A stretch of 64,000 nucleotides of DNA from contig NZ_QYUR01000002.1 in assembly GCF_003596405.1 (NCBI RefSeq), positions 822,501 through 886,500 of the forward strand, written 5' to 3'. Positions 45,873 through 47,839 of this stretch are shown here, in pieces. The stretch is from Pseudomonas cavernicola. Its GTDB lineage: Bacteria > Pseudomonadota > Gammaproteobacteria > Pseudomonadales > Pseudomonadaceae. The notes below the pieces were generated by a model. The model saw only the letters and a program-made list of their open reading frames with translations. It did no database searches and was not told the DNA's origin. Position numbers and translations under genes: made by a program. Numbering within the stretch: the first letter of the stretch is position 1; the number at the start of each line of letters is the position of its first letter.

Positions 45873-47102
45873 ATGAGCAAGACCTCTCTCGACAAGAGCA
45901 AGATCAAGTTCCTTCTCCTGGAAGGCGTCCATCAATCCGCCGTGGACACCATCAAGGCTGCCGGCTACACCAACATTGAGTACCTGACCGGCTCGCTGCC
46001 TGAAGATCAGCTCAAGGAAAAGATCGCCGACGCCCACTTCATCGGCATTCGCTCGCGCACTCAGCTGACCGAAGAGATTTTCGACTGCGCGAAGAGGCTG
46101 GTCGCGGTCGGTTGCTTCTGCATCGGCACCAACCAGGTCGACCTGAACGCCGCCCGCGAACGCGGCATCGCGGTGTTCAACGCGCCCTATTCGAACACCC
46201 GCTCGGTGGCCGAACTGGTGCTGGCCGAAGCCATCCTGCTGCTGCGCGGCATCCCGGAAAAGAACGCCTCCTGCCACCGTGGCGGCTGGATCAAGAGCGC
46301 GGCCAATTCCTTCGAGATCCGCGGCAAGAAGCTCGGCATCGTCGGCTACGGCTCGATCGGCACCCAGCTCTCGGTGCTGGCCGAAGCGCTGGGCATGCAG
46401 GTGTATTTCTATGACGTGGTGACCAAGCTGCCGCTGGGCAACGCCACCCAGGTCGGTAAGCTGCACGATCTGCTCGGCATGGCCGATATCGTCTCGCTGC
46501 ACGTACCGGAACTGCCGTCCACCCAGTGGATGATCGGCGAGCCGGAAATCCGCGCGATGAAGAAGGGCGGCATCCTGATCAACGCGGCACGCGGCACGGT
46601 GGTCGAACTCGATCACCTGGCCAATGCGATCAAGGACAAACACCTGATCGGCGCCGCCATCGACGTGTTCCCGGTCGAGCCGCGCTCCAACGATGAAGAG
46701 TTCGAGAGCCCGCTGCGCGGCTTGGACAACGTGATCCTGACCCCGCACATCGGTGGTTCGACTGCCGAAGCGCAAGCCAACATCGGCCTGGAAGTCGCAG
46801 AGAAGTTGGTCAAGTACAGCGACAACGGTACCTCGGTGTCCTCGGTCAACTTCCCGGAAGTGGCGCTGCCCGCCCACCCCGGCAAGCACCGCCTGCTGCA
46901 CATTCACGAGAACGTGCCGGGTGTGATGAGCGAGATCAACAAGGTGTTCGCCGACAACGGCATCAACATCTCCGGTCAGTATCTGCAGACCAACGACAAG
47001 GTCGGCTACGTGGTGATCGACGTCGACGCCGACTACTCCGACCTGGCGCTGGAGAAGCTGCAACACGTCAACGGCACTATCCGTAGCCGCGTGCTGTTCT
47101 AA
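45873..47102 (+). CDS. serA: D-3-phosphoglycerate dehydrogenase
   Basis: A 409-residue NAD-dependent dehydrogenase, first step of serine synthesis. The Rossmann loop is GIVGYGSIGTQLSVLAEALG (about residues 155-174), the catalytic Arg/Glu/His triad lies in NAARGTVVEL and LTPHIGGST, and the C-terminal ACT domain (HENVPGVMSEINKVFADNGI) is the serine sensor. The length matches the E. coli type. Expected pairing is with the divergent D-2-hydroxyglutarate dehydrogenase. The start has ACAGG upstream. It ends at a strong terminator that is also a group IIC intron target. Confidence 0.97.
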   Translation: MSKTSLDKSKIKFLLLEGVHQSAVDTIKAAGYTNIEYLTGSLPEDQLKEKIADAHFIGIRSRTQLTEEIFDCAKRLVAVGCFCIGTNQVDLNAARERGIAVFNAPYSNTRSVAELVLAEAILLLRGIPEKNASCHRGGWIKSAANSFEIRGKKLGIVGYGSIGTQLSVLAEALGMQVYFYDVVTKLPLGNATQVGKLHDLLGMADIVSLHVPELPSTQWMIGEPEIRAMKKGGILINAARGTVVELDHLANAIKDKHLIGAAIDVFPVEPRSNDEEFESPLRGLDNVILTPHIGGSTAEAQANIGLEVAEKLVKYSDNGTSVSSVNFPEVALPAHPGKHRLLHIHENVPGVMSEINKVFADNGINISGQYLQTNDKVGYVVIDVDADYSDLALEKLQHVNGTIRSRVLF

Positions 47103-47127: not shown

Positions 47128-47155
47128 AAAGGGAGGCTTCGGCCTCCCTTTTTTG
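47128..47155 (+). terminator. Rho-independent terminator of serA
   Basis: AAAAGGGAGGC, TTCG tetraloop, GCCTCCCTTTTTT. It begins 25 bases after the serA stop. The group IIC intron starts four bases after the T-tract, the normal insertion position for this intron class. Confidence 0.93.
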
Positions 47156-47159
47156 TGTG

Positions 47160-47839
47160 GTGCGCCAGGCATGGCGCGTAGCGCCGTGACTGGCGCTGTC
47201 TGGCTCACTGTGGTGGTGAGCTGGATGACTTGGAGGTGGAAGTCCTCTACACACCCGGCAAGGGGAAGTGTTAGCTGAAGGCAAGGGTGTCGCGGGCGAC
47301 TGCGAATCTGAAGGAAGCCGAAGGCAAACTGCTGGCCTGACGAACAGGAAGCGGATTAGGCGGCGTAGCGGGGTGAGGTAGCCATAATTGCCAAAGCCCG
47401 ATACTTGCACGGAACGCTACGACGTATATCCGACAGGCATAAGCAGGAAGGTCGCGCGAATTACCCTGGGAGATCTGTTCGCCTGCCATGTGCTACCGGC
47501 ATCGTGAGGTGACGGGATGGGCGAGCAGAAGTCAGCCGAGGCCGTAGTAGTTGCTCGGAACCGGAGCAATGAAGGGCTGAACCTGCCATGAGCGGATAGT
47601 CAGGTGTGCTCTCTGAGCGGGTCGCAGGCACAAGCTCCCTTATACGGAGGCCTGGACAATCAGGAGGTAGGGGCCGGAAGTCCCGAGAGCCTGTCCGGGT
47701 GCTTAGACTACGCGGGCGACACATCGAACGAAACCAAGCTCGCTGATGCAGTTTGTCAGTAGGCAGGAACCGCCGTATACGGAACCGTACGTACGGTGGT
47801 GTGGGAGGACGGCGGGGGTGACCCCGCCTCCTACCCGAT
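47160..47839 (+). ncRNA. Group IIC intron lacking its reverse transcriptase (ORF-less)
   Basis: The 5' end GTGCGCCAGGCATGGCGC matches the first stem of group IIC introns. Domain I carries AAGGGTGTCGCGGGCGAC and GAATCTGAAGGAAGC; TTACCCTGGGAGATCTG and GCAGAAGTCAGCCGAGGCC follow. Domain V (about 47769-47801) is ACCGCCGTATACGG, AACC, GTACGTACGGTGGT with the CGC triad typical of IIC. Domain VI ends CTCCTACCCGAT. CCTGCC (47582-47587) and GGCAGG (47762-47767) can form the base stem of domain IV, whose loop is only about 175 bases and has no reverse-transcriptase frame. The element is about 680 nt, whereas full IIC introns are near 2 kb. The exact 5' and 3' ends are predictions. Confidence 0.85.

Follow-up and report, generated by a model that had tools for sequence, protein, structure and literature searches.

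An ORF-less group IIC intron behind the serA terminator of Pseudomonas cavernicola that appears to spread using the enzyme of full-length relatives

How does a group II intron that carries no protein gene come to lie directly behind the terminator of serA in Pseudomonas cavernicola, and by what means might such an RNA still move? The locus lies on the plus strand of the window, by which we mean the whole 64,000-nucleotide stretch of DNA that was analyzed. The original prediction, made from sequence alone, described a group IIC intron running from a 5′ GTGCG to the end of domain VI, and raised the question of its copy number. Three Rfam group II models match here, all on the plus strand, in the expected order and above the Rfam gathering threshold: the domain I core (group-II-D1D4-3, RF02001, 135.7 bits) at 47290..47459, the region of domains II-III (group-II-D1D4-1, RF01998, 72.4 bits) at 47493..47577, and domains V and VI (RF00029, 47.3 bits) at 47768..47839. 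The CGC catalytic triad of domain V, a feature linked to the IIC class, can be read from the sequence at 47771-47773. Both the assignment to group IIC and the predicted limits are thus upheld, the latter to the base. The intron opens with GTGCG at 47160 and closes with CTACCCGAT at 47839, which is also the last base of the RF00029 match, and the same ends are set by nine copies with unrelated flanks. These limits define a complete ORF-less intron of 680 nt (47160..47839), in which the presumed branch-point A, placed by its position, is at 47833.

The claim that domain IV encodes no protein also stands, with the correction that the domain spans about 190 bases and not 175. No reverse-transcriptase frame occurs among the open reading frames of at least 50 amino acids in the domain IV of this intron; the sole plus-strand frame of that size encodes 52 amino acids, and an 87-amino-acid frame lies on the minus strand. 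Among 30 relatives the domain varies from 165 to 190 nt by amounts that are not multiples of three, and there is therefore no conserved coding content.

The intron had been placed right after the serA terminator, and this is where it lies. The upstream gene at 45873..47102 (plus strand) encodes D-3-phosphoglycerate dehydrogenase (SerA; NF008759, 694 bits), and its intrinsic terminator, the insertion target, occupies 47131..47154 on the same strand, where a hairpin of 7 perfect base pairs (47131-47148) is followed by a T-run (47149-47154) directly 5′ of the intron. An identical serA hairpin without the intron is found in a related genome (G001, locus L190). All 43 ORF-less insertions and all 10 full-length ones satisfy a lenient terminator rule, compared with 493 of 4000 random window positions; one of the 43 calls concerns a tandem copy in genome G012, where the rule fires on domain VI of the neighboring intron. 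Also in G012 (L072, 2037-4643), a full-length intron sits one base within the 5′ end of an ORF-less copy, with one terminator for both.

The question of copy number has a clear answer. The P. cavernicola genome (G000; 5.63 Mb in 8 contigs) holds nine full ORF-less copies, of which the other eight are 99.3-99.9% identical to the copy in the window. Over 679 aligned bases, six of them differ from it by 1 base (the same base in each), one by 2 and one by 5. The flanks of the nine are unrelated, identity goes no further than the intron ends, and every copy follows a different terminator with its own hairpin and T-run (9 of 9). G012 has eight full ORF-less copies of 681-683 nt: seven follow terminators, and the eighth follows a full-length intron in tandem.

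Target choice can be examined through the pairing between EBS1 of the intron and IBS1 of the 5′ exon. EBS1 was read off one alignment of 43 ORF-less and 9 full-length introns, a set that leaves out partial copies without a 5′ end, duplicate records or insertions, and unfetched copies. In the window copy this guide is CATAA at 47383..47387 (plus strand), as evident by covariation with IBS1 across the 43 insertions. ORF-less introns pair with their own 5′ exons at 190 of 215 positions, where at least one pair of insertions in G012 and P. mendocina looks orthologous and the counts are therefore not all independent; shuffled pairings average 139.9 with a maximum of 165, and 0 of 20,000 are as high. 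Omitting the tandem copy gives 189 of 210, and when the comparison is made by EBS1 type (10 types), 1 of 20,000 permutations is as good. Matched sets such as CATAA-TTATG (eight of the nine copies in G000), AACGA-TCGTT, CAATA-TATTG and CATGA-TCATG illustrate the correspondence. Pairing of the window copy with its IBS1, GTGTG at 47155..47159, covers 4 of 5 positions, and the other eight copies pair at 5 of 5 with TTATG. Six of the 43 insertions pair at three or fewer of the five positions (the tandem copy, S. stutzeri CLN100, P. oleovorans, G172, one S. kirkiae copy and a Citrobacter plasmid). Because EBS1 matches the insertion site across this collection, we conclude that the ORF-less RNAs chose their own sites. 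The close full-length introns resident in P. cavernicola are differently matched, with EBS1 AAAGA and sites such as TCTTT.

We consider it highly probable, in keeping with the original prediction of dependence on a maturase from elsewhere in the genome, that the intron in the window is a long-lived, non-autonomous group IIC retroelement that is moved in trans by the class C protein of resident full-length introns. The ORF-less RNA would be a complete ribozyme that lost its reverse-transcriptase gene and kept a compact domain IV, possibly with a docking DIVa. A class C protein from a resident full-length intron would bind this RNA in trans and aid its splicing. The RNA would then reverse-splice behind a terminator hairpin with its own EBS1 as guide, after which the resident protein would copy it. 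The lineage would have persisted and moved between species, in part on conjugative plasmids. The stripped-down form is also found in other species and on plasmids, as detailed below, and so it appears to spread using the enzyme of its full-length relatives. What we observe is the structure, the copy number, the targeting of terminators, the EBS1-IBS1 match, a conserved domain IV and the presence of candidate helpers; splicing, binding by the helper protein and trans mobility are what we infer.

This explanation calls attention to what remains of domain IV. Its structured part (47582..47767, plus strand, 186 nt) conforms to a structure of 44 pairs in eight helices, in which 92.1% of cells are paired and 18 of the 44 pairs have changed on both sides in an alignment of 30 rows (29 distinct), with 0 of 500 shuffles as high by any of five measures. 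The structure was drawn by hand from covarying helices, a choice that favors it and against which the shuffles and controls with slid partners serve as a guard; the slid controls yield at most 10 pairs with two-sided change. One of the drawn pairs is non-standard in 24 of the 29 rows. RNAalifold applied to an earlier 37-row alignment gives 7 of 30 pairs with two-sided change. Folding of the single domain IV sequence is no more stable than that of shuffles (z -0.69), and the case for structure therefore rests on covariation. A covariance model of the domain, R1, gives 189 bits for the window copy and 67.7 bits for that of G729, a genome outside its alignment. The ORF-less domain IV is thus a conserved structured RNA and not an empty stump.

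The reading that this RNA is the protein-docking DIVa element, with the ORF replaced by a small hairpin, has at best moderate support. Against 17 loci with full-length or RT-bearing introns, R1 finds the right place in four, weakly (27.2, 14.5, 14.5 and 14.4 bits; E 1e-4 to 0.1); each of these matches lies directly after domain III and runs into the beginning of the protein gene. Among the full-length introns at the remaining loci, FL1-4 of P. cavernicola included, R1 finds nothing at E 1 or better, and there is one further weak match elsewhere. A loose motif search of full-length introns recovers both strands of a similar closing helix in 19 of 22 rows, in other letters (CCGC/GCGG vs GAGY/GCUC), together with similar hairpins. 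Because R1 recognizes full-length domain IV weakly, at 4 of 17 loci, docking of the same protein on the ORF-less domain IV is no more than possible. We dropped loss of the start codon as a mark of the ORF-less form, since several full-length introns also lack an ATG there.

The relationships among these introns bear on the age of the ORF-less form. A tree was built from 424 nt of the 5′ ribozyme, with 23 ORF-less rows and 14 comparison rows (bearing an RT frame or remnant) chosen for diversity. Nineteen ORF-less introns from Pseudomonas, Stutzerimonas and plasmids fall in one clade (support 98/94) in which one RT-bearing S. kirkiae intron is nested; a clade of those 19 without it is rejected (p 0.015). 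Eleven RT-bearing introns form a separate clade (98/95). The copies of the beta-proteobacteria (Rhodocyclus/Sulfuricella), the Citrobacter plasmid and G729 lie outside the Pseudomonas-type clade, and the AU test rejects a single clade of all ORF-less rows (p 3.8e-6). The window copy shares 92-94% identity (up to 93.8%) with six ORF-less rows elsewhere and 87-91% with most other Pseudomonas-type rows, compared with 89.3% for the best full-length introns (those of G032 and G425) and 83.3% for FL1 of its own genome. The tree and identities together point to one old ORF-less group in Pseudomonas and, overall, to either more than one origin or the exchange of parts between introns. The nested intron, from Stutzerimonas kirkiae (L163), may be a chimera, having a 5′ ribozyme half from the ORF-less group and a protein just 50% identical to the P. 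cavernicola FL1 protein (P0001); the fetched stretch holds no domain V/VI match.

A stronger form of our explanation, somewhat less likely than not, is that of an old, self-standing lineage: the bacterial equivalent of SINEs, relaxed in its helper specificity, whose domain IV is kept for a purpose, whose RNA alone sets the target, and which passes long periods without its own enzyme, exploits any resident class C RT and travels between genera on conjugative plasmids. Set against the single lineage is the possibility, somewhat doubtful in our view, that separate deletions of the ORF produced the ORF-less state more than once. The rejection of one clade for all ORF-less rows, with the Rhodocyclus/Sulfuricella, Citrobacter-plasmid and G729 copies apart from the Pseudomonas group, is what repeated loss would produce; yet exchange of parts between introns could also break monophyly, the ORF-less rows share an alignable domain IV down to its closing helices, and the nineteen Pseudomonas-type rows hold together apart from their single nested RT-bearing intron.

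If the ORF-less RNA is moved in trans, a source of protein should be at hand, and the P. cavernicola genome does hold full-length relatives of the intron with a reverse transcriptase. Four close ones (FL1-4), 1920 nt each, have class C RT frames bearing YADD and are ~87% identical to the ORF-less intron across its first 390 bases by blastn; by global alignment FL1 and FL4 show 83% over 420 columns. Three of the four frames give an uninterrupted match of 460 amino acids, and FL2 has a stop near the N-terminus that leaves an open frame of 426. P0001 (FL1, 460 aa) is a group II RT/maturase with YADD (TIGR04416, 416 bits), and its nearest solved structure is the GsI-IIC RT (E 9.6e-141). Two more distant relatives (83% by blastn) are both altered, one of them in a stretch within its RT frame, and neither has GTGCG at the expected 5′ end. 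Two intron fragments are also present. A scan of the whole genome for domain V/VI yields 18 matches, 17 of them above threshold, and an RVT_1 scan yields seven frames. Additional RT or group II domain V/VI matches at C8:388573-389797, C8:632209-632283 and C8:488557-488631 (the last below threshold) lie outside the IIC families analyzed.

Across the genus, 36 of 398 genomes hold RTs that match P0001 at E 1e-100 or better, with identities as low as 45%, and such RTs are commoner in carriers of the ORF-less form (8 of 21) than in other genomes (28 of 377; Fisher p 1.8e-4). At that threshold, 13 of the 21 carriers have no class C RT. When these 13, several of which are drafts, are examined at E 1e-20, three hold fragments of close RTs (69-87% identical; G103, G298 and G339), four have distant RTs only (34-36%) and six have none. 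The two genomes with many intact copies, G000 and G012, both have close helpers, G012 in the form of three nearly identical full-length RT frames. Contiguous genomes that lack an intact close helper have one copy (G365), two (G298) or partial copies (G376). RVT_1 finds no match in G365, G376, G729 or G969, each with one ORF-less copy or fragments; these fit stranded copies, yet they also show that the intron can reside without a helper. G276 has close helpers, yet just two full ORF-less copies. In a small sample, this pattern fits trans mobilization followed by stranding. Besides the IIC helpers, G276 contains another amplified RT-bearing family, represented by twelve RVT_1 frames that all score 135.6 bits, ten of which are 487 aa long.

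The helper might instead be a different RT, such as the group II RT at C8:388573 or the family of 83% relatives. Seven RVT_1 frames do offer a choice, and the class C RT found in another genome, G223, is just 49% identical to P0001. We nevertheless regard this as unlikely, because FL1-4 share ~87% of the first 390 ribozyme bases with the ORF-less intron and are its sole close relatives in the genome with open RT frames and regular ends.

We judge it very improbable that the window intron is a dead deletion derivative of a resident full-length intron, multiplied beforehand or by accident. Its protein gene is absent, and a review, in the parts drawn on here, calls introns without a protein splicing-only (PMC4424553). 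A dead RNA, however, would not be expected to leave nine near-identical copies, an EBS1/IBS1 match maintained after divergence, or structural selection on domain IV. In addition, a derivative of this kind should most resemble the full-length intron of its own genome (83.3%), whereas the closest relatives are the six ORF-less rows elsewhere (92-94%) and even the best full-length introns (89.3%) are in other genomes. The narrower idea of a fresh deletion was dropped because the copy groups with ORF-less introns of other species and plasmids.

Carriers of the ORF-less form extend well beyond P. cavernicola. In a set of 57 genomes (P. cavernicola and relatives), 13 have some match to the intron. 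Within the genus, 21 of 398 genomes carry the domain IV sequence, in some cases as fragments alone, and copies are undercounted because two candidates were scored per genome. A 20-base domain IV pattern finds 40 stretches in named genomes, 39 of which match the intron by blastn, some of them partly; the one in a Pedobacter MAG does not. The matching records are from Pseudomonas and Stutzerimonas species, Rhodocyclus purpureus, a Sulfuricella MAG and other MAGs, and those MAG-labeled matches that fall outside Proteobacteria (L139, L140) may be binning errors. By covariance model, two other families of the order have one copy each, complete in G729 and without its 5′ part in G969. Broader samples, for which six or seven candidates per genome were scored under strict filters, show the form to be rare (2 of 398 phylum genomes and 3 of 341 order genomes, P. 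cavernicola being counted in both). No E. coli genome among 5426 holds it at 80% coverage or more, no stretch in viral contigs has the domain IV pattern, and no phage record reaches 80% of the intron.

Among 72,556 plasmid records, 11 contain 80% or more of the intron, from Aeromonas (three), an uncultured host, P. alcaligenes, P. putida, P. fulva (two), Citrobacter and P. veronii (two, 3′-truncated). The ORF-less domain IV is present in all three that were inspected, namely one from Aeromonas (IncP, with the intron behind a ParB-family gene), that of Citrobacter (IncC, with the intron before traL) and that of P. putida. The gene table, which is incomplete, annotates nothing at the matched stretch in 10 of the 11 records, and draft assemblies are often broken at the intron, as in P. 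oleovorans DSM 1045 and P. borbori, where many contigs start or stop within it. For these reasons the ORF-less form is easily overlooked.

Mobilization of ORF-less introns in trans is already known from a cyanobacterium. The TeI introns of Thermosynechococcus elongatus are not IIC but of class IIB, with a chloroplast-like protein. As reported in the portion of that study used here, the ORF-less TeI3 introns are moved by TeI4 proteins, with trans mobility established by experiment (PMC2882425). The P. cavernicola intron resembles them in having related introns with open protein frames in its genome (FL1-4) and in its multiple copies at EBS-matched sites; its domain IV has no protein gene and may have kept DIVa. 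The TeI introns are described from one genome and still show discernible ORF remnants (PMC2882425, in part), whereas the present family is IIC, targets terminators, spans genera and plasmids, and owes its mobility to inference. With full-length IIC introns such as B.h.I1 and GsI-IIC the window intron shares its ribozyme type, a CGC domain V, insertion behind terminators and, in its candidate helper, a class C protein, but it is 680 nt long without a protein gene, compared with 1920 nt for the resident full-length introns. C.te.I1 of Clostridium tetani is likewise an ORF-less bacterial group II intron; the passages used from PMC4424553 and PMC3919590 describe a genome without a related protein gene and alternative splicing in a surface-layer gene, and no multi-copy, terminator-targeting family. 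The Listeria jumbo phage LPJP1 likewise has ORF-less introns and one that bears an RT, with trans mobility proposed, in a phage genome with introns 40-50% identical (PMC12350094, in part), unlike the near-identical copies at bacterial terminators described here.

Within the literature searched, no widespread IIC family of this kind is described. Titles and abstract openings on ORF-less IIC introns, Pseudomonas or terminators, and the sections used of PMC3522654, contain no description of one, and members may figure in a 2008 survey of ORF-less introns. According to the sections of the review used here, protein-less group II introns are no longer retromobile and are uncommon in bacteria, with comparatively few that have escaped notice (PMC4424553); a later survey, again in part, finds no protein in 888 of 13,041 group II introns and remarks on an increase of ORF-less introns in certain genomes (PMC8919778). 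The family described here has nine copies in one genome, eight in another, carriers in 21 of the 398 genomes of the genus and members on IncP and IncC plasmids. At 680 nt, the intron is also a compact natural substrate for learning how a group II protein recognizes RNA in trans and how helper-dependent introns survive.

Several ORF-less copies (L098, L099, L100, L102, L142, L153 and those of the P. veronii plasmids, H10 and H11) are cut at an identical 3′ place, with flanks that are the same or nearly so where printed (L098-L100, L102), and this recurrent copy is probably carried by another mobile element. That all copies spread in such a manner, by another element or by recombination rather than by retrohoming of the intron RNA, is the least probable of the alternatives: the truncated copy with identical flanks in several genomes, and its likes on P. 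veronii plasmids, do suggest a larger carrier, but in the nine G000 copies identity stops at the intron ends, the target matches EBS1, and 30-60 bases per side contain no common flanking element. Separately shortened IIC introns of 711 and 1008 nt, with RT remnants and a different domain IV, lie between bcsB and bcsC on E. coli plasmids (L203, L204). In G005 (L084), the protein gene of a full-length IIC intron is, as judged by eye, interrupted by an element with a transposase-like ORF.
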